Source: Peptococcaceae bacterium
Lineage (GTDB): Bacteria; Bacillota; Peptococcia; DRI-13; PHAD01
NCBI GenBank assembly: GCA_024655825.1
Contig: JANLFJ010000034.1
Span: forward strand, 1 to 32,784
Direction: 5' to 3'
DNA length: 32,784 bases
Of the stretch, positions 1,093 to 30,408 are shown piece after piece. A model generated the notes under the pieces. That model had not been told where the DNA came from. It ran no database searches and saw only the letters and a program-made list of their open reading frames with translations. Position numbers and translations under genes: made by a program. Each line of letters opens with the position of its first letter. Within the stretch, counting starts at the first letter, position 1.

Positions 1093-3786
1093 TCAATGCA
1101 GACCCGGCGGCTGCTCCGGTTCCCGGCTGTAAACCGGAATCCCGGCAGGCGTTTCTTTTTCCGGTTCCTGCACTGCCTGGGGCTGGGGGAAAACGGTCAT
1201 TTCCAGCTCTTCAGGCATTCCGTAATATGCCTGGCGATAAATCTCTTTCAGTTCAGAAATCAGGGGAAAACGGGGGTTGGCCGTAGTGGCCTGGTCCTCG
1301 AAGGCCTTTTCGGCCAGTTCTTCGGAAAGCTCCAGGAAGCGTTCTTCCGGTATGCCCATTTCTTTTAAAGACAAGGGCATCTTCAGTTCCTTCATGAGGT
1401 TGACCACGGCCGAGACAAGGCTTTCCACTCCTTCACGGGTATCACGGGCAGGCAGTCCCAGGTTCCTGGCAATTTCCGCGTATTTTTCATGGGCCACGTA
1501 GTGTTCATATTTCGGAAAAGCATTGAACTTTGTGGGCACTGACGCGTTATACCTGATGACATGCGGGAGGAGGACAGCATTGGCCCTGCCATGGGGAATG
1601 TGAAACTCGCCTCCCAGTTTGTGGGCCAGGCTGTGATTGATGCCCAAAAAGGCATTGGTAAATGCCATGCCGGCGATAGTCGACGCATTATGCATCTTCT
1701 CCCGGGCTTCCCGGTCGCCGGCATTCCGGAACGACCTGGGCAGGTAGGCAAAAACCAGCTGGATGGCTTTCATGGCCAGCGCGTCGGTATAATCCGAGGC
1801 CATCACCGAAACATAGACCTCCAGGGCATGGGTAAGGGCATCCATTCCTGTATCCGCCGCAACCCCCGCCGGCATGCTTTCCACAAAATCCGGATCGACT
1901 ATGGCCACATCCGGTGTCAGCTCGTAATCAGCCAAGGGGTACTTGGTCTGGGTCTCCGGGTCGGTTATGACGGCAAAGGAGGTCACTTCCGAACCGGTAC
2001 CCGATGTGGTGGAAATGGCCACCAGCCTGGCCTTTTTGCCAAGGCGGGGAAACTTGGCCACCCTCTTTCTGATATCCATGAACTTCAGGCGCAAATCCTC
2101 AAACCTCGTTTCAGGGTATTCATAAAACAGCCAGATGGCTTTGGCCGCGTCAATGGCGGACCCGCCCCCCAGGGCTATAATCACGTCGGGTTTGAAGGCA
2201 TTGACCGCTTCCACTCCTTCTTTCACCGTCTGGATCGTAGGATCGGGCCGCACACCGCTGAAAATCTCGGAATGGACGTAATTGCGTCCTTCCCGGTGAC
2301 GCAGGCGGTAAAGGACCTTATCCACGTACCCCAGCTTTACCATCATTTCATCGGTAACAATAAAGGCGCGGGAGATGTCGGGCATCTTGGACAGGTACTG
2401 GACTGCCCCTGGCTCGAAATAGATTTTCTCAGGTATCTTAAACCACTGCATGTTATACCTCCTTTTTACCACCCGCTTTCTGTTGATGAGATTGACAGAA
2501 GTGATGTTTGCAGTGGTGCTGTTCCTCCCGAAGGAGCCGCAGCCCAGGGTTAGGGAGGGGAGATTGGTGTTGTAAATGTCGCCGATGGCCCCGTGGCTTG
2601 AAGGCTGGTTGATAATGAGTCTTCCCGTGTTGACCTGTTTGGCAAACTCGTTGATGACCTCCTCGTTTTCCGAGTGGATAACGGCAGAATGTCCTGACCC
2701 GCCGAAATTAACCATCTCCACGGACCTTCTCAATCCTTCCCAGGAGTCTTTCACCCTGTAACAGGCCAGGATAGGACTGAGTTTTTCCCGGGAAAGAGGA
2801 TGATCGGGCCCCACTCCTTCCAGTTCAGCCACCAGTATTTTGGTGCCTGCCGGAACGTTAAAGCCCGCCTTCCTGGCTATTTCCGTAGCAGGCTGCCCCA
2901 CTATTGCCGGGTTCATGGCACATTTCACCGTGTCAATGGCCAGGGCTTCCAGCATCCGCTTTTCCTCACCGCTGACAAAATAACACCCGTTATCCTTCAT
3001 CAACTGCACAACCCGGTCGTAGACCTCGTCATCAATGATCACCGCCTGTTCCGAGGCGCAGATCATCCCGTTGTCAAAGGTCTTGGACAGGATCAAATCG
3101 GTAACTGCCCGCCGGAGGTCGGCCGACTTTTCAATATAGCAGGGCACATTGCCCGGTCCCACTCCCAGGGCGGGTTTGCCCGCGCTGTAGGCGGCCTTGA
3201 CCATGGAAGACCCTCCTGTTGCCAGGATGAGAGAAACCCCGTCATTCTTCATAAGAAACTGCGTGGCTTCAACAGACGGCTCTTCCACCCACTGGATGCA
3301 ATTCGGAGGCGCCCCGGCGCGGACAGCCGCGTTTCTCATGATGCGGGCCGCTTCCGCGCTGCACTCCTGGGAACCAGGATGAAAAGCGAAAATGATGGGG
3401 TTTCTCGTCTTCATCGAGATTATCGCCTTGAACATGGTTGTTGATGTTGGATTGGTCACCGGCGTAATCCCGGCAATAACCCCTACCGGTTCGGCCAGGT
3501 CGTAATAGTCCTCTTCCTCGTTTTCCTCAATGATCCCTACCGATTTCTGGTACTTGATGCTGTGATAAATGTATTCCGTGGCAAACATGTTTTTGACGGC
3601 CTTGTCCTCGTATACTCCCATCCCTGTTTCCGAAACAGCCATCTTGGCCAGCCGCATGTGATTGGCCAGACCCTCGATGGCCATCTCCTTGACGATAGCA
3701 TCGACCTTTTCCTGGTCCAGCTTAATCATTTCCCCAAGGGCAAGCTTGGCGTTTTCCACCAGCTGTTCAATCATTCGCTCAGCCAT
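1093..3786 (-). CDS. adhE: Bifunctional acetaldehyde-CoA/alcohol dehydrogenase AdhE
   Basis: AdhE reduces acetyl-CoA to acetaldehyde and then ethanol with two NADH, disposing of electrons in fermentation; in the cytoplasm it assembles into long filaments called spirosomes. At 897 residues it has the full family length. The N-terminal half (about 1-440) is a CoA-acylating aldehyde dehydrogenase with the catalytic cysteine C243 in FDNGMICASEQ. After a linker, the C-terminal half (about 450-870) is an iron-dependent alcohol dehydrogenase with the nucleotide-binding GGGSAIDAAKA and metal-binding histidines in HSLAHKLGGEFHIPHGRANA. The ATG at 3786 follows an AGGGGTGTG ribosome site at a slightly long spacing. 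It is probably a single-gene unit. Its leader contains complementary segments that could pair with the ribosome site (listed separately). The C-terminal 25 or so residues are Pro/Glu rich and less conserved. Confidence 0.97.
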   Translation of the reverse strand: MAERMIEQLVENAKLALGEMIKLDQEKVDAIVKEMAIEGLANHMRLAKMAVSETGMGVYEDKAVKNMFATEYIYHSIKYQKSVGIIEENEEEDYYDLAEPVGVIAGITPVTNPTSTTMFKAIISMKTRNPIIFAFHPGSQECSAEAARIMRNAAVRAGAPPNCIQWVEEPSVEATQFLMKNDGVSLILATGGSSMVKAAYSAGKPALGVGPGNVPCYIEKSADLRRAVTDLILSKTFDNGMICASEQAVIIDDEVYDRVVQLMKDNGCYFVSGEEKRMLEALAIDTVKCAMNPAIVGQPATEIARKAGFNVPAGTKILVAELEGVGPDHPLSREKLSPILACYRVKDSWEGLRRSVEMVNFGGSGHSAVIHSENEEVINEFAKQVNTGRLIINQPSSHGAIGDIYNTNLPSLTLGCGSFGRNSTTANITSVNLINRKRVVKRRYNMQWFKIPEKIYFEPGAVQYLSKMPDISRAFIVTDEMMVKLGYVDKVLYRLRHREGRNYVHSEIFSGVRPDPTIQTVKEGVEAVNAFKPDVIIALGGGSAIDAAKAIWLFYEYPETRFEDLRLKFMDIRKRVAKFPRLGKKARLVAISTTSGTGSEVTSFAVITDPETQTKYPLADYELTPDVAIVDPDFVESMPAGVAADTGMDALTHALEVYVSVMASDYTDALAMKAIQLVFAYLPRSFRNAGDREAREKMHNASTIAGMAFTNAFLGINHSLAHKLGGEFHIPHGRANAVLLPHVIRYNASVPTKFNAFPKYEHYVAHEKYAEIARNLGLPARDTREGVESLVSAVVNLMKELKMPLSLKEMGIPEERFLELSEELAEKAFEDQATTANPRFPLISELKEIYRQAYYGMPEELEMTVFPQPQAVQEPEKETPAGIPVYSREPEQPPGLH

Positions 3787-6354: not shown

Positions 6355-8088
6355 TTACATTCCGGATCGTTTCCTGTTCCTGTAGTGGGTGTGCAGGAGC
6401 TTGTGCGACATTTCGCCCAAAGGTTTGCCCAGGAACTCCTCGTAGATCTTTTTAATATACGGGTTCTCATGTGATTTCCTGAGGGGAAGGCCGCGGTCCG
6501 CTTCGTAGACGGCCTCCATCCTCTTTTTGCGTATCCCGACGTAGTCAGCCGTGTTAAGAGGCTGACCCCCTCCGCCCAGGCAGCCTCCGGGGCAGGCCAT
6601 AATCTCCACAAAGTGGTACTCGGCCCCGGCTTTAATTGCCTCTAGAATCTTTTTGGCATTCCCCAACCCGTGGGCCACGGCCACTTTTACTTCCAGTTCG
6701 CCTACCGGCACTGTTGCTTCTTTAACGCCCTCCATACCCCGGACATCAGTAAACTCCAGCTTCTCCAGCGGCTTTGAGGTAACGATTTCGTATACCGTGC
6801 GCAAGGCCGCTTCCATCACCCCGCCGGTCGCTCCAAAAATAACCCCGGCCCCTGTTCCCATGCCGAACGGATCGTCGTACTCCTCTTCCGGCAGCATATC
6901 CCAGTCTATGCCGGCCTGCCGGATAAGGGCAGCCAGCTCCCTGGTCGTCAGGACGGCGTCCACATCCTTAAAACCGCTTGCTCTCATCTCCGGCCGCTCG
7001 CACTCGAATTTCTTGGCGGTGCACGGCATCACCGACACCGTGTAAATCCTTTCCCGGGCAATACCGTTTACAATCCCGTAATAAGTCTTCATGATGGCTC
7101 CAAACATTTGCTGCGGCGATTTGCATGTCGAGATGTTCGGGATAAATTCCGGGTAAAAATGCTCCATGTACTTGATCCAGCCGGGACTGCAGGAAGTGAT
7201 GAGCGGCAGCTTCCCGCCTTTGTTGAGCCTTTCCAGAAGTTCCGACCCTTCTTCCATGATGGTCAAATCGGCCGCAAAATCCGTATCGAAAACGCCGTCA
7301 AACCCCAGACGTTTTAAGGCGGCCACCAGTTTTCCCGTCACAATGGCTCCGGCTCCCATCCCGAACTCTTCGCCGAGAGCAATCCTGATGGCGGGAGCCG
7401 TCTGGACGACAACATGCTTGTCAGGATCGCTCAACGCCTTCCAGACCTCGTCGATATAGCTCTTCTCGCTCAAAGCTCCCGTCGGGCAGACATTGACACA
7501 CTGGCCGCAGAGAGTGCACATTACATCACCCAGCGGGAGTTTAAAGGCGGGAGACACAATGGTATTGTACCCCCTGTCCAGCGCCCCGATGGCCCCGACA
7601 CCCTGGACCTCATGGCAAACACTGATGCAACGGCGGCACAAAATACATTTGTCGGGGTCCCTAACGATTGAAGGGTTCCCATCGTCCTTTTCTCTTCTTC
7701 TCCCTGGGTATGAGTATTCCAGTTCCCTGATGCCCAGCTCGGCGGCGACCTTCTGCAGCTCGCAGTTATTATTGCGGGTGCAGGAAAGGCATTCCTGGGG
7801 ATGATCGGACAGGATCAGGTTCACTACGCTTTTACGTGCCTCTCTCACCCGGCTGGTATTCGTGTACACCTTCATACCCGTCGAAACCTCCGTTGTGCAG
7901 GCAGGCATCAGGCTTTTCGCCCCCTCCACTTCCACCACGCAAACCCGGCAAGCGCCGATCGACTGGATGTCTTTAAGATAACAGAGAGTTGGGATATGAA
8001 TCCCGGCTGACCTGGCTGCTTCCAGAATCGTTAATCCCGCCTCGACCGACACTTCCCTGCCGTCAATAAGCAGATTCACTTTCATCAT
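6355..8088 (-). CDS. hydA: [FeFe] hydrogenase catalytic subunit HydA
   Basis: HydA makes or oxidises H2 at the H-cluster. At 577 residues it has the multi-cluster layout: an N-terminal [2Fe-2S] domain (C36, C47, C50, C64), the His-Cys cluster motif (HPQECLSCTRNNNC, 96-109), two [4Fe-4S] motifs (C148-C158 and C191-C201), then the H-domain with TSCSPGW (298-304), MPCTAKKFE (354-362) and MACPGGCLGGGGQP (497-510), and the C-terminal small-subunit-like tail (NPYIKKIYEEFLGKPLGEMSHKLLH region). The first motif has Ser301 where many enzymes have a second Cys. It is the last gene of a four-gene operon with NuoE- and NuoF-like partners, so it is probably a soluble NAD(P)-linked or electron-bifurcating enzyme. 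The maturation genes hydE, hydF and hydG are not in this window. GAGGAGGG precedes the tandem ATGs at 8088/8085. Confidence 0.96.
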   Translation of the reverse strand: MMKVNLLIDGREVSVEAGLTILEAARSAGIHIPTLCYLKDIQSIGACRVCVVEVEGAKSLMPACTTEVSTGMKVYTNTSRVREARKSVVNLILSDHPQECLSCTRNNNCELQKVAAELGIRELEYSYPGRRREKDDGNPSIVRDPDKCILCRRCISVCHEVQGVGAIGALDRGYNTIVSPAFKLPLGDVMCTLCGQCVNVCPTGALSEKSYIDEVWKALSDPDKHVVVQTAPAIRIALGEEFGMGAGAIVTGKLVAALKRLGFDGVFDTDFAADLTIMEEGSELLERLNKGGKLPLITSCSPGWIKYMEHFYPEFIPNISTCKSPQQMFGAIMKTYYGIVNGIARERIYTVSVMPCTAKKFECERPEMRASGFKDVDAVLTTRELAALIRQAGIDWDMLPEEEYDDPFGMGTGAGVIFGATGGVMEAALRTVYEIVTSKPLEKLEFTDVRGMEGVKEATVPVGELEVKVAVAHGLGNAKKILEAIKAGAEYHFVEIMACPGGCLGGGGQPLNTADYVGIRKKRMEAVYEADRGLPLRKSHENPYIKKIYEEFLGKPLGEMSHKLLHTHYRNRKRSGM

Positions 8089-8101: not shown

Positions 8102-11100
8102 CTATTTCACATCGCAGCGCAGGCAGCGGCTGGCTTCATACTGGACTTCTTTTTCGGTCAAAGTAGCCTCCACCTCGTCAAAATTGAACTTTCTTTGCTC
8201 CGGCGGCAGGATCGTCGGGTTGATCCGTTCCCGCTCCCCTTCGATAACCGGCTGGTAAAGTTCTCTCTTGATCTGCCTCTTATCGAACGATTCGTAGTTC
8301 TTCCCGCCCAGGTAACGGTCAATGGTCTGGGCGGCCTTCCGCCCGTCGGCTATGGCGCTGATCACCGTTTCAGGTCCCCTGACGCAGTCGCCTCCTGCAA
8401 ATACCCCCGGAATGGAGGTCATCATGCTTTCCTTGTCAACCTCGATAACCTTCCCGCTGCCCAGGGTTATCTCATCGTCGACCACCAGGTTTTCAATATC
8501 CTGGAACAGCCCCACGGCCGTGATGACAGTATCTATCTCCACCACGAAATTTGATCCTTCTACCGGAACCGGTGTCCGTCTTCCCGACTTGTCGTACTGG
8601 CCCGGCTCCAGCCTGATGCATTCCAGCCCCACCACGTGCCCGTTTTCTTCGATTACCCGTACGGGCGTTGTAAGGCAGTGAATTTCTATGCCTTCGTTCG
8701 CCGCATCTTCGATTTCGCTCTTTTCCGCCGGCATATCTTCACGGTTCCTCCGGTAGATGATGCTCACTTCCCTTGCTCCCAGCCGCTTGGCAACCCGGGC
8801 TGCGTCAATGGCGGAATTGCCGCCCCCTATTACCGCAACGCGCTTTCCTATCTGGACCTCGTGCCCCAGGCAAACATCTTTCAAGAAGCTGAGAGCCGAA
8901 TAAACCTCAGGCAGGTCTTCCCCCGGAACGTCAAGAGGGCTGTCCTTGTGGCAGCCGATCCCCACAAAAACGGCGTCGTACTCCTTGACCAGGGAACTGA
9001 GGGAAATATCTTTTCCCACGGAGGTATTAAGCATAACATCAATACCGTGAGCCAGTATCCATTCAATTTCCTTGTTGAGAATATCCCGCGGCAGTCGATA
9101 GGCCGGAATAGTCAGGGCCAGCATTCCGCCAAGCACGGGCTGCTCCTCAATAACCATCACCTTGTAACCCCATTTGGCCAGAAAATAGGCGACGGTCAGC
9201 CCGGCCGGACCTGATCCCACCACGGCGACTTTTTTACCGTTGGGCGTAACCCCGGCCATTTTCTTTTGCACCCTTTTTATGGATTTTTCCCAGTTGGCCA
9301 GTTCATAATCCCCGGCAAACCGCTTAATATAACGGATCCCTACCGGGGCGTCAAGCTGACCTCTCTGGCAGCGTCTTTCGCAGGGATGGTTGCAGACCCT
9401 CCCGCAAACCGAAGGGAACGGATTGTCCTCCCTGATAATATCCACCGCGTCGGCGTAAGCCTTGCGCTGGACAGCCTCGATATAGCGCGGGACGTCTATC
9501 CCCGCCGGGCAAGAGTTCTGGCAAGGCGATACGAACAGCGACGCGCAGACCGAAGCCCGGCAGTACTTGTTTTTAATGTGTTCTTCATACTCCTCCCTGA
9601 AGTAGCAAATAGTGCTCAAAACCGGGTTGGGGGCAGTCTGTCCCAGCCCGCAGAGGGCCGTATCCTTGATATGCTTGCCCAGCTTTTCCAGTTTTTCGAT
9701 GTCCCCTGGCTGGCCCTTGCCCCTGGTGATATTCTCGAGTATTTCCAGCATCCTTTTGGTGCCCACACGGCAAGGAACACATTTCCCGCATGATTCTTCC
9801 TGCACAAACTCCAGGAAAAATTTGGCCAGGTCGACCATGCAAGTGTCCTCATCCATGACTATTAACCCGCCGGACCCCATAATCGTCCCTAGTTCAGTCA
9901 ACGATTCGTAATCCATGGGAACATTGAGGTACTGTATTGGTATGCACCCGCCGGACGGGCCTCCGGTTTGGGCGGCTTTAAACTTCTTGCCTTTCGGTAT
10001 CCCGCCGCCAACTTCGAAAATGACTTCGCCCAGGGTAGCGCCCATAGGAACCTCAACCAGGCCGCTGTTCTCAATTTTCCCGGCCAGGGCGAACACCTTT
10101 GTTCCCGGTGATTTAGCTGTGCCCACTGACTTAAACCATTCCGTCCCGTTTAAAATAATCGGCGGTACATTGGCCCAGGTCTCCACGTTATTGATCACCG
10201 TGGGTTTCTGCCACAAACCCCGGTCTGCCGGGAACGGCGGCTTGGGACGCGGTTCACCCCTTTCCCCTTCAATAGACCGGAGCAGGGCAGTTTCTTCGCC
10301 GCAAACGAAGGCTCCAGCGCCGACCCTGATTTCAATATCAAAACTAAAACCGGAATCAAAAATATTGCCGCCCAAAAACCCTTTTTCCCGCGCCTGCCTG
10401 ATCGCAAGATCCAGGTGTTCCACGGCAAGCGGGTACTCAGCGCGGATGTACACGAAGCCTTTGTTGGCTCCAATGGCATACCCGCCAATGATCATCCCTT
10501 CGATCAAGGAATGGGGGTCGCCTTCGATAATGCTCCTGTCCATGTAAGCGCCCGGGTCTCCTTCATCCGCATTGCAAACGACATACTTGACCGGCCCCGC
10601 GCTCCGGGCGGCCAGTTCCCACTTTAAACCGGTAGGAAAGCCGGCGCCGCCTCTTCCCCTCAAGCCCGACTCCTTTATGTGCCTGATTACCTGGGCGGGC
10701 TCCATTTCTCCCAGCACCCTGGCCAGGGCAAAGTACCCGTCCCGGGCAATGTAGTGTTCAATATTATTGGGGTCTACTATCCCCACGTTTCGCAGGGCGA
10801 TTTTAACCTGGTTGCTGAAAAAGGAAATATTGTTTACATCGTTTTCTCCTTCGAACAACAGCCTCTCCACCACGTTGCCCTGGTAAAGGTGCTTTTCCAC
10901 GATTTCCCGGACATCGTCAGGGGTCAGCTTTTTATAAAAAATGCCGTCAGGATAAACGATCATCATGGGGCCAAGAGCGCACGGACCCATACAGCCCGTT
11001 ATTACCACCTTGATTTCCTTGTCGATCCCATACTTTTTCATTTCTTCCTGCAGAGTCTTGGCAACCTCTTCGCAGCCGGAGGAGACACAGCCGCCGCCCC

Positions 11101-11134
11101 CGCAAACAAGCACATGATTCCTGTATATCTCCAT
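8102..11134 (-). CDS. hydB: HydB/NuoF-like hydrogenase subunit fused to a GltD-like oxidoreductase
   Basis: This is the NAD(P)/flavin subunit of the hydrogenase, 1010 residues from the ATG at 11134, which AGGAGAT precedes. The N-terminus (about 1-100) is a thioredoxin-like [2Fe-2S] domain (C11, C16, C48, C52). NuoF follows: GLRGRGGAGFPTG (157-169, FMN/NADH), GDPGAYMDR (192-200) and the [4Fe-4S] ligands ESCGKCVPC (447-455) with C495. Usual HydB proteins end in a ferredoxin domain. Here only a CRASVC remnant (525-530) is left, followed by a complete GltD-like module: Fe-S cysteines C538-C589, FAD loop GSGPAG (640-645), NADPH-type loop GGGNSAIDAAR (770-780) with YRRNREDMPA just after, and GVFAGGDC (910-917). 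A second flavin and pyridine-nucleotide site is therefore likely. The open frame continues 24 codons upstream, but that would overlap the preceding gene. Confidence 0.93.
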   Translation of the reverse strand: MEIYRNHVLVCGGGGCVSSGCEEVAKTLQEEMKKYGIDKEIKVVITGCMGPCALGPMMIVYPDGIFYKKLTPDDVREIVEKHLYQGNVVERLLFEGENDVNNISFFSNQVKIALRNVGIVDPNNIEHYIARDGYFALARVLGEMEPAQVIRHIKESGLRGRGGAGFPTGLKWELAARSAGPVKYVVCNADEGDPGAYMDRSIIEGDPHSLIEGMIIGGYAIGANKGFVYIRAEYPLAVEHLDLAIRQAREKGFLGGNIFDSGFSFDIEIRVGAGAFVCGEETALLRSIEGERGEPRPKPPFPADRGLWQKPTVINNVETWANVPPIILNGTEWFKSVGTAKSPGTKVFALAGKIENSGLVEVPMGATLGEVIFEVGGGIPKGKKFKAAQTGGPSGGCIPIQYLNVPMDYESLTELGTIMGSGGLIVMDEDTCMVDLAKFFLEFVQEESCGKCVPCRVGTKRMLEILENITRGKGQPGDIEKLEKLGKHIKDTALCGLGQTAPNPVLSTICYFREEYEEHIKNKYCRASVCASLFVSPCQNSCPAGIDVPRYIEAVQRKAYADAVDIIREDNPFPSVCGRVCNHPCERRCQRGQLDAPVGIRYIKRFAGDYELANWEKSIKRVQKKMAGVTPNGKKVAVVGSGPAGLTVAYFLAKWGYKVMVIEEQPVLGGMLALTIPAYRLPRDILNKEIEWILAHGIDVMLNTSVGKDISLSSLVKEYDAVFVGIGCHKDSPLDVPGEDLPEVYSALSFLKDVCLGHEVQIGKRVAVIGGGNSAIDAARVAKRLGAREVSIIYRRNREDMPAEKSEIEDAANEGIEIHCLTTPVRVIEENGHVVGLECIRLEPGQYDKSGRRTPVPVEGSNFVVEIDTVITAVGLFQDIENLVVDDEITLGSGKVIEVDKESMMTSIPGVFAGGDCVRGPETVISAIADGRKAAQTIDRYLGGKNYESFDKRQIKRELYQPVIEGERERINPTILPPEQRKFNFDEVEATLTEKEVQYEASRCLRCDVK

Positions 11135-11144
11135 TGCGAATCTC

Positions 11145-11531
11145 CTACCTCCTCTCCATTCTCGTTGACAGCAGCCACGGGACAACAGCCACCCCGTTAA
11201 TGACATGCTGCGTAAAAATCACTTCCGCCATTTCTTCAGTAACCAGGGCATACACAGAACTCCTCATCCCCGGTTTAAATATTTGGATTATTGGTTCCAT
11301 GCTGCATAAGCCCAGGCATCCAGCAGGCTCAATGATCACCTTCCCAACCATATCGTGCTTTTCGGTGAGTTTGATCAGCCTTTTTTCCACTTCCTTGGCC
11401 CCGACTGAAGTACCGCAAATTCCCAGGTGAACAATAATCCGGGTTTTATTCTTTTTTTCCTCTTCCAACTTCCTGTAAATCTTAATTGAATTTTGCCGGA
11501 ATTCAATCATTTTGTCCTTAACCGGCGTCAT
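11145..11531 (-). CDS. HndB-like [2Fe-2S] ferredoxin-fold subunit
   Basis: This 128-residue protein is a thioredoxin-like [2Fe-2S] domain similar to HndB of NADP-reducing hydrogenases. The cysteines visible are one in HLGICGTSVGAKEVE and two in GCLGLCSMEPIIQI; the classical NuoE-type fold uses four, so cluster binding here needs checking. The N-terminal 35 residues form a charged helix. It lies between hydC and hydB, 15 bases after hydC and 10 before hydB, with a GGGGGGA ribosome site before the ATG at 11531, so it is surely part of the operon. In this enzyme class such subunits probably help pass electrons between the flavin subunit and the hydrogenase; that role is by analogy. Confidence 0.85.
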   Translation of the reverse strand: MTPVKDKMIEFRQNSIKIYRKLEEEKKNKTRIIVHLGICGTSVGAKEVEKRLIKLTEKHDMVGKVIIEPAGCLGLCSMEPIIQIFKPGMRSSVYALVTEEMAEVIFTQHVINGVAVVPWLLSTRMERR

Positions 11532-11546
11532 TTTTCATCCCCCCTT

Positions 11547-12059
11547 CTATTGTTTTTTATCAGCGGGATAATAGCTGGCCAATATCTCTTCTATCTTTTC
11601 GGCCTTAACACGCGTATACACCTTATCGTTAATCATGATTACCGGCCCCAACCCGCAGGAACCCAAACACCGCAGCACTTCCAGGGAAAAAACACCGTCC
11701 TTGGTCGTATCCCCGGGTTCGATTCCCAGGACTGACTTCAGCTTGCTCAATATTCTCTCTGTTCCTTTTACATAACAGGCCGTGCCCTTGCATACCCCAA
11801 TAACATACTGCCCCTTTGGTTTTTCCCTGAACAACGTGTAAAACGAAACAATCCCGTTAACGTCCACCACCGGCATTCCCAATTCAGTGGCGATCAGGTC
11901 CTGTACTGCCGGGGGTAAATAACCGAAAACCTTTTGCACTTCGTGCAAAATCGGGATCACCGCACCAGGCTGTCTTTTGAATTCTTTAATAATGCTCATG
12001 ACGCGCTCATACTCGTCTTCTTTCAATCCTTCCTGACACAGAGCGGAGATAAACTCCAT
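11547..12059 (-). CDS. hydC: HydC/HndA (NuoE-like) [2Fe-2S] hydrogenase subunit
   Basis: This is the first gene of the hydrogenase operon (170 residues). It has the NuoE fold: a helical N-terminal part with AVIPILHEVQKVFGYLP and GMPVVDVNGIVSFYTLF, then a thioredoxin-like [2Fe-2S] domain with VCKGTACYVKG and LRCLGSCGLGPV supplying four ligand cysteines (CxxxxC...CxxxC). NuoE-like subunits sit beside the FMN site of NuoF-like subunits in complex I and in HydABC hydrogenases. I choose ATG 12059 rather than the ATG at 12098 because AAAGGAGGAAGG lies just before it and the conserved part begins there. The longer form would start at about the expected transcription start of the sigma-54 promoter at 12101-12116. 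That promoter is the main regulatory element for this gene and the three behind it. Confidence 0.93.
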   Translation of the reverse strand: MEFISALCQEGLKEDEYERVMSIIKEFKRQPGAVIPILHEVQKVFGYLPPAVQDLIATELGMPVVDVNGIVSFYTLFREKPKGQYVIGVCKGTACYVKGTERILSKLKSVLGIEPGDTTKDGVFSLEVLRCLGSCGLGPVIMINDKVYTRVKAEKIEEILASYYPADKKQ

Positions 12060-12100: not shown

Positions 12101-12116
12101 TGCAATTTTCATGCCA
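12101..12116 (-). promoter_or_regulatory. Sigma-54 promoter of the hydrogenase operon
   Basis: The minus strand reads TGGCATGAAAATTGCA: a -24 element TGGCAT and a -12 element TTGCA with the obligatory 10-base gap between GG and GC. It matches the consensus TGGCAC-N5-TTGCW at all but one position. Transcription should start near 12,090, about 30 bases before the hydC ATG. A sigma-54 activator gene lies directly upstream. Confidence 0.85.
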
Positions 12117-12239: not shown

Positions 12240-12287
12240 AAAAAAACAAAGAATCCCGGTTAATGCTCGTGTAAACCGGGATTCTTT
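12240..12287 (-). terminator. Strong intrinsic terminator of the sigma-54 activator gene
   Basis: AAAGAATCCCGGTT (12248-12261) pairs perfectly with AACCGGGATTCTTT (12274-12287), a 14-bp stem with a 12-base loop. On the minus strand it is followed by a seven-T run. It lies about 100 bases past the activator stop and separates that transcript from the hydrogenase operon. Confidence 0.9.
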
Positions 12288-12303
12288 AATGCGTTGGCGC
12301 ATC
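12288..12303. promoter_or_regulatory. Candidate enhancer (activator binding) site 1
   Basis: AATGCG-TTGG-CGCATC is an inverted repeat with one mismatch and a 4-base spacer, placed about 172 bases upstream of the -24 element. It has the same plan as the palindrome at 12344-12359, whose start lies 56 bases away. Together they fill the stretch between the activator gene and its terminator. Binding by the activator's helix-turn-helix is inferred. Confidence 0.5.
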
Positions 12304-12343
12304 AGAACCGCTCTTCTCAGTATTTATCAAGGAAAAATCGCTC

Positions 12344-12359
12344 AATGCATCTCTGCATT
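12344..12359. promoter_or_regulatory. Candidate enhancer (activator binding) site 2
   Basis: AATGCA-TCTC-TGCATT is a perfect inverted repeat with a 4-base spacer, about 230-240 bases upstream of the sigma-54 promoter. A further half-site, TGCATTA, lies at 12373-12379. The distance is usual for enhancer sites of sigma-54 activators. The rest of the 325-base gap between hydC and the activator gene holds the terminator and promoter listed here and no gene. Confidence 0.5.
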
Positions 12360-12384
12360 AGGGATTCCGTTTTGCATTAAGACT

Positions 12385-29409: not shown

Positions 29410-30408
29410 CTAAACCTTCAAAGAAACATTCATGGCTAAACGGGCAAGTTCCAGGGTTTTAGCCGCTTCCCGGCGCGCCGTCTCAGCGCTGGCAAGAAGA
29501 ATTTCCCGCAGCATGCCGGGTTTGCTTTCGTAATACTTCCTTCTTTCCCGAATAGGAGTCAGCAGGTCGTCAAGTACGGCGGCAAGGCGTTTTTTACAAG
29601 CCACACAGCCGGTTTCGCCCGCCCGGCAGGCTTTCCGAATCTCCTCAACCTCCCCGCGATTATAAATCTCCTGGTAGGTATGAACGATGCACACCTCCGG
29701 TTTCCCGGGGTCCGTTTTTTTGATGCGGCCGGGGTCTGTTACCATCATCTGCACCTTTTCCAGAATCTCGTCCCTGGAAGCGCTGAGCGGTATGTCGTTA
29801 TTATAGCTCTTGCTCATTTTCCGGCCGTCCACCCCGGGTAAGAGTGAAACCCTGGCCAGTTTGGCCTGCGGTTCCGGGAACAAATCCGTCCCGTAAAGAT
29901 GATTGAACCGGCGGGCGATTTCCCTGCACAGCTCGACGTGGGCCAGCTGGTCTTCGCCTACGGGCACCGTATCGGCCCGGTAAATAAGAATATCCGCCGC
30001 CATCAATACGGGATACCCTAAAAATCCATAAGTGGAAATGTCTTTCCCCTGGCTGCCGAGCTGCTGAATCTGGTCCTTGTATGTGGGCACTCTCTCCAGC
30101 CAGGAAAGAGGGATGATCATCGAGAACAAAAGATGAAGCTCCCCGTGTTCCTTAACCTGGGATTGGACAAAAAGGGGACTTTTTTCAGGGTCCAGACCCA
30201 CGCTCAACCAGTCTAAGAGCATTGTCCGGATATTATCCTGGATTTCCGCGGTACTCTCAAAAGAGGTGGTGAGGGCATGCCAGTCGACTATCCCAAAAAA
30301 GCAGCGGTACTCTTCCTGGAGCCTTACCCAGTTCTCCAGCACGCTCAAATGACCGATATGCAGCCTGCCCGTGGGCCGCATTCCACTGAAAATTACGCCT
30401 TTTTTCAT
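29410..30408 (-). CDS. trpS: Tryptophanyl-tRNA synthetase
   Basis: TrpRS (332 residues) charges tRNA-Trp. Class I markers are HIGH at RLHIGHLSVLENW (about 15-27) and KMSKS at DGRKMSKSYNND. Between them lie SWLERVPTYKDQIQ and GEDQLAHVELCREIARRFN. A CxxC pair, CVACKK, lies in the C-terminal domain and is found in many clostridial enzymes. GAGGAGG precedes the ATG at 30408. I saw no T-box leader; the gene is a few bases behind the protease gene and appears to be carried on the cca transcript. Confidence 0.97.
   Translation of the reverse strand: MKKGVIFSGMRPTGRLHIGHLSVLENWVRLQEEYRCFFGIVDWHALTTSFESTAEIQDNIRTMLLDWLSVGLDPEKSPLFVQSQVKEHGELHLLFSMIIPLSWLERVPTYKDQIQQLGSQGKDISTYGFLGYPVLMAADILIYRADTVPVGEDQLAHVELCREIARRFNHLYGTDLFPEPQAKLARVSLLPGVDGRKMSKSYNNDIPLSASRDEILEKVQMMVTDPGRIKKTDPGKPEVCIVHTYQEIYNRGEVEEIRKACRAGETGCVACKKRLAAVLDDLLTPIRERRKYYESKPGMLREILLASAETARREAAKTLELARLAMNVSLKV

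Follow-up and report, generated by a model that had tools for sequence, protein, structure and literature searches.

The stretch of DNA analysed here (the window; 32,784 nt, contig JANLFJ010000034.1 of a Peptococcaceae bacterium) contains, on the minus strand and in this order, a gene for a sigma-54 activator, its stop codon, three palindromic sites (S1, S2 and S3), a terminator, a sigma-54 promoter and an operon for an [FeFe] hydrogenase of the Hnd/HydABC type (Table 1). The frame of the first operon gene was scanned from 12062, and its start codon at 12059 was picked by eye behind an AGGAGG sequence. The terminator hairpin occupies 12248–12287, with a T-run reaching 12240, and sits between the sites and the promoter; it was not listed by an automatic terminator scan, its 12-base loop being longer than the limit of that scan. 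A gene for an AdhE-like bifunctional aldehyde/alcohol dehydrogenase, with Aldedh and Fe-ADH domains, is found on the same strand at 1093–3786, ca. 2.5 kb downstream of the hydrogenase operon.

Table 1. Features of the activator-hydrogenase locus, in order of transcription.
Feature	Coordinates	Strand	Basis
Sigma-54 enhancer-binding activator gene, 863 aa	12385..14976	-	Pfam scan and alignments
Site S1, worn, AATGC-AAAACG-GAATC on the activator strand	12363..12378	-	One mismatch to RATGC-N6-GCATY
Site S2, AATGC-ATCTCT-GCATT	12344..12359	.	Exact match to RATGC-N6-GCATY
Site S3, AATGC-GTTGGC-GCATC, adjoining the terminator	12288..12303	.	Exact match to RATGC-N6-GCATY
Intrinsic terminator of the activator gene, 14-15 bp stem followed by a T-run	12240..12287	-	Sequence and fold
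Sigma-54 promoter (-24/-12), TGGCATGAAAATTGC	12102..12116	-	Promoter pattern
HndA-like subunit, thioredoxin-like [2Fe-2S], first operon gene	11547..12059	-	Pfam
HndB-like subunit	11145..11531	-	Weak PF01257 match (22.5 bits, cut-off 24.8); operon position
HndC/HydB-like NAD(P)H-linked subunit	8102..11206	-	Complex1_51K, NADH_4Fe-4S, Pyr_redox_2
HndD/HydA-like [FeFe] hydrogenase catalytic subunit	6355..8088	-	Fe_hyd_lg_C (334 bits), Fe_hyd_SSU

The initial annotation of this DNA described two palindromes of the same plan, AATGCGTTGGCGCATC (12288–12303) and AATGCATCTCTGCATT (12344–12359), whose starts are 56 bp apart, and an extra half-site, TGCATTA, at 12373–12379; all of these coordinates are right. 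The half-site is present but is not a lone half, being one arm of the third, worn site S1, which is 19 bp from S2. The palindromes had also been placed ahead of a sigma-54 promoter, and such a promoter was found; the centres of the three sites lie 180, 236 and 255 bp upstream of its TGGC, and the corresponding distances are 59–354 bp in the 12 loci measured. Our searches used RATGC-N6-GCATY, slightly broader than the AATGC-N6-GCATT proposed initially. This pattern has 13 exact matches in the 3.16 Mb of the genome, S2 and S3 among them, and the backwards pattern has none; a reversed-pattern control allowing one mismatch (115 vs 47) was kept out of the evidence. When the motif was scored loosely (up to two mismatches) in the window alone there was no enrichment, with 17 matches against 19.26 expected.

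A Pfam scan and alignments show that the activator is composed of Fer4, Fe_hyd_lg_C, FeS, PAS and Sigma54_activat domains and a C-terminal HTH of the Fis type (NQSTVVRK). As expected of an enhancer-binding protein, its AAA+ domain matches PF00158 (4.5e-70), with the GAFTGA motif seen in the alignment, and the HTH scores above the cut-offs of both PF18024 (38 bits, cut-off 27) and PF02954 (23.8 bits, cut-off 22). The genome also contains rpoN (Sigma54_DBD, 1.1e-61, at G000:C10). Sequence matches in the PDB include NtrC1, ZraR, FleQ and PspF among the solved relatives of the activator, and the sensor region resembles the large subunits of [FeFe] hydrogenases. This sensor appears degenerate in the alignment: CRGC replaces CPGGC, and the small-subunit domain has no counterpart. 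Taken with the Pfam assignments, these matches suggest that the signal is probably the redox or hydrogen state, perceived through the PAS domain and through the Fe-S and hydrogenase-like domains at the N-terminus.

Orthologues of the activator were found in three of 25 genomes of the order, including its own, and in three of 46 genomes of the class, which added none. A scan of genome contigs yielded seven loci, five of them full-length and two of these already matched in the order, and a draw across the phylum gave 12 in 398 genomes, again counting its own. Pooling these sources and excluding two partial actinobacterial matches (L031 and L032, residues 2–414 only) left 17 distinct activators, including that of the window, with a lowest pairwise identity of 37 %. 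Three of these (G412, G216 and G374) are 94–98 % identical, so that the 17 represent about 15 independent lines.

Conservation in relatives had been set beforehand as the test that could refute a role for the palindromes, and they passed it: in 17 out of 17 cases they were found after the activator gene and ahead of the operon behind it. Activators with 37–98 % protein identity all have exact RATGC-N6-GCATY sites behind their genes. In G310, a transposase-bearing element (L045, 7641–9407), with a frame on the other strand, breaks the last codons of the activator and changes the end of the HTH; on the far side of the element there are three sites (two exact and one with one mismatch), a promoter and an HndA gene. 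The narrower consensus of the initial annotation holds for most of these loci, with 24 exact sites in 16 of the 17, but none in UBA6129, whereas the broader pattern fits all 17. Beyond the letters demanded by the pattern, the 33 distinct sites favor T and A in the flanks and A and T in the inner pair.

Statistics were calculated on the 16 uninterrupted loci, leaving out G310, with tails scanned to 300 bp past the stop codon; that of M8S5 was scanned, and shuffled, to 640 bp because its exact site is 487 bp away from the stop codon. All 16 loci have one or more exact sites (shuffle mean 0.04, largest 1), and the 32 exact sites in total compare with 0.04 expected from 200 dinucleotide shuffles (largest value, 1). 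Two or more sites with up to one mismatch occur in 15 of these loci (shuffle mean 0.03, largest 1), and a pair of sites 17–21 bp apart in 14 (shuffle mean 0.005, largest 1); no such pair with up to one mismatch was found in the other two, from Lucifera and a Clostridium MAG. When the spacer was varied from 2 to 12 bases over the same loci, matches appeared at N6 alone, barring one at N12. A promoter-like GG-N10-GC element follows the sites in all 17 loci, in 12 by a strict pattern and in five by a looser one that could arise by chance; it deviates from TGGC in three orthologues (AGGTATAAAAATTGC, CGGTATAATATATGC and TGGAACAATTAATGC). The sites are hence dyad-symmetric elements at enhancer distance before a -24/-12 promoter and are conserved with the activator across species, the two traits that we looked for in upstream activating sequences (UAS).

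In the usual plan, S1 and S2 are placed close to the stop codon of the activator gene or across it, some two helical turns from each other; S3 follows after another 56–123 bp, either ahead of the terminator or within it. The window fits this plan, with 19 bp between S1 and S2, 56 bp between S2 and S3, and S1 beginning seven bases past the stop. In eight of the 17 orthologues (G412, G216, G374, G122, G241, G288, G311 and G309) the first site takes in the stop codon itself from its second base on (TRA-TGC...), four of these sites being exact and four having one mismatch. The locus of G309 has three sites. The activators of Lucifera, M8S5 and the Clostridium MAG (L028, L029 and L030) have short C-terminal extensions (TAHVHE, NNAFMHD and KDVLEHY, respectively); a worn first site appears to share bases with the codons of these extensions. 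The S2–S3 distances found were 56, 112 (Lucifera, in which no S1 was scored), 91, 91, 104, 104, 68, 89, 78, 90, 123 and 68 bp, without a common helical phase. The spacing of 56 bp had been taken as just over five helical turns; with a helical repeat of 10.5 bp it corresponds to 5.3 turns, which is out of phase, and it varies among relatives, so the helical-phase argument was dropped. Judging from this comparison of loci, the relevant spacing is that of the 17–21 bp S1–S2 pair and not the 56 bp.

Behind 15 of the 17 activators there is a hydrogenase operon. Using the window subunits as blastp queries, HndA was found in 11/11 loci from the phylum search and HndD in 10/11, the G310 stretch ending before HndD; the operons of Lucifera, M8S5 and the Clostridium MAG were read from translated frames, the last one showing only the first two subunits on a short contig. 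In the remaining two loci (L026 and L027, from UBA6129 and HGW-Firmicutes-12) the sites are kept and the hydrogenase operon is absent behind the activator, its place being occupied by what we take, from the sequence, to be a DUF485-like gene and an ActP-type symporter gene. No relative of the symporter fragment was found in the genome of the window at E 1e-20. In the tree, these two activators are sister to that of the window (96/93), and all others face hydrogenases; a single change of target fits this tree, in which the deeper branching is not resolved. Additionally, an exact site is absent from nine stretches containing other hydrogenase genes in G000, G001 and G024, some of which are contig ends that may lack their upstream parts. 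Since two of the 17 activators face a symporter operon and these other hydrogenase stretches have no sites, comparison of the loci indicates that it is the activator gene, and not the operon, that the sites go with.

The genome of the window encodes 24 other sigma-54 activators, but an exact site lies 300 bp or less from the stop codon in just one, that in contig C15 (L100, G000:C15). This site, GATGC-AATGGC-GCATC, overlaps the stop codon of an activator gene ending at 29807, and the paralogue shares the three-site plan, with an exact site at -1, sites with one mismatch at +20 and +99, and a promoter at +188, followed by a gene that is presumably CoA-transferase-like. The HTH of the C15 paralogue also scores highest against that of the window (70); the next paralogue, with 66, has neither site nor promoter. 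Cross-talk between the C15 paralogue and the activator of the window is possible. The proposal that the palindromes are sites for the C-terminal HTH of the activator gains support, within the reach of sequence comparison, from their conservation in all 17 loci and from their tracking of the HTH among paralogues.

A sigma-54 promoter pattern occurs within 400 bp behind the stop codon in 20 of the 24 other activators (among L081–L100, L004, L005 and L008), many of their tails have inverted repeats of their own, and an activator preceding its target is the rule in this genome. One paralogue, in C51 (L004, G000:C51), has the HTH KIDQSTIVKKAKKLGI and three GATGA-N6-TCATC repeats arranged in the same plan ahead of a sigma-54 promoter; this HTH and its repeat are a possible pair for a recognition code.

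A scan for the motif near other sigma-54 promoters, as suggested initially, did not reveal a wide regulon among the 13 exact sites of the genome: apart from the two sites of the window and that at the stop codon of the C15 paralogue, 10 out of 10 overlap open frames of at least 90 codons (L010 partly). Six other genomes contain 49 exact sites in all, 14 of them in activator loci. Of the 35 outside these loci, 23 were examined (20 regions), 20 being inside open frames and three outside; among those examined, G310:C1:1477805 alone has a sigma-54 promoter ahead, before a CoA-transferase-like gene, and the frame preceding it encodes no HTH of this kind at its end. Two candidates for duplicated sites, in C79 and C130 of G024, were rejected, both lying inside frames.

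These results make it very probable that the three palindromes serve the sigma-54 activator whose gene immediately precedes them as its UAS, or enhancer. This reading draws on the sites, their conservation and spacing, the promoter, the operon, the domain make-up of the protein and the presence of rpoN, all taken from the sequence, from which we infer binding, looping, activation and the nature of the signal. A different explanation, which we consider very unlikely, is that the palindromes act as RNA, forming 3′ untranslated hairpins that stabilize the activator mRNA or tune termination. The sites would indeed be transcribed within the 3′ end of the activator message, between stop codon and terminator, and they fold into hairpins; the 149-nt tail has a folding energy of -47.2 kcal/mol versus -30.6 in shuffles (z -4.5, 0/200), although much of that is due to the terminator. 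Nevertheless, it is letters and not pairing that are conserved: in 34 exact sites the outer pair is A-T in 24, G.T in seven and A.C, which is unpaired in the transcript, in three, and no compensation is seen because none has G-C. The ATGC/GCAT core is invariant, though demanded by the search pattern, the distant exact site of M8S5 lies behind a first terminator-like hairpin, and the 17–21 bp spacing, close to two helical turns, agrees with a role as DNA.

It is still less probable that the hydrogenase operon is controlled by another regulator, for instance a global redox regulator, to which the palindromes belong as binding sites. Redox regulators, Rex among them, act on many fermentation and hydrogenase operons, but the Rex site, TTGTGAA-N6-TTCACAA, is unlike RATGC-N6-GCATY; besides, the sites stay behind the activator where the operon is of the DUF485-ActP-like symporter type, are missing around the other hydrogenase genes and, among paralogues, accompany the most similar HTH. 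Chance palindromes, for which the unremarkable frequency of the loosely scored motif in the window might speak, can practically be dismissed, being already refuted by the conservation, the count of exact sites against shuffles and the spacer control.

With the palindromes taken as the enhancer of the activator, the Fis-type HTH of an activator dimer would read one RATGC-N6-GCATY palindrome, and neighbouring dimers would occupy S1 and S2 next to each other, S3 providing an additional site. The dimers would then seed the AAA+ hexamer, and a DNA loop would let the GAFTGA-bearing hexamer contact RNA polymerase-sigma54 at the promoter, 180–255 bp away, opening it and starting the hydrogenase operon. 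Dimers seeding a hexamer that loops to the promoter are the established way of NtrC-type activators. Systems of the NtrC, NifA and FhlA type have an AAA+ GAFTGA activator that acts on palindromes ahead of a -24/-12 promoter, and the locus described here has the same components, with binding predicted. It differs from them in the motif, in a first site that often overlaps the stop codon of the activator gene, and in a sensor that is an [FeFe]-hydrogenase-like domain.

A survey of UAS motifs in Clostridiales (PMC6615313), the single directly relevant article that the literature search brought up, lists in its Table 1 39 groups of enhancer-binding proteins and their targets. The survey mentions activators with Fer4, Fe_hyd_lg_C and FeS among the domain make-ups, and it names the UAS of FhlA and NifA. 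Like those groups, the activator of the window has a Fis-type HTH and a conserved, probable UAS and sigma-54 promoter ahead of an operon adjoining its gene; however, none of the 39 groups targets a hydrogenase operon according to that table, and RATGC-N6-GCATY differs from the TGT-N10-12-ACA used by fifteen of them. The palindromes would thus form a new UAS group of a known sort, set apart from the 39 by Table 1 only, and a similar logo may occur in another group. Swol_1040 of Syntrophomonas wolfei (PMC4324140), with a proposed role in regulating hydrogen production, also combines Fe-only-hydrogenase-like and ferredoxin domains, but it is a histidine kinase and not a sigma-54 activator, and the part of that article covered does not describe a DNA site. 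In the literature searched, no sigma-54 activator with its site was found described for NAD(P)H-linked [FeFe] hydrogenases.

The first site starts inside the stop codon of the activator gene in the eight orthologues mentioned and in the C15 paralogue, so that gene and sites would be inherited together. Tentatively, since we give it somewhat less than an even chance, activator and enhancer might be one portable block, and any sigma-54 operon arriving behind it would fall under its control, as exemplified by the change from hydrogenase to ActP-type symporter in two relatives. If activator and enhancer do form such a block, its hydrogenase-like sensor domain would make it a sigma-54 switch, responding to redox state or hydrogen, that governs the NAD(P)H-linked [FeFe] hydrogenase throughout the Firmicutes. 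An activator that retains its DNA sites through a change of target operon would also offer a natural case in which to study the evolution of regulatory wiring. The analysis further provides a consensus that can be tested, (T)RATGC(A)-N4-(T)GCATY(A), and a candidate for a specific regulator of [FeFe] hydrogenases that are NAD(P)H-linked and probably electron-bifurcating.
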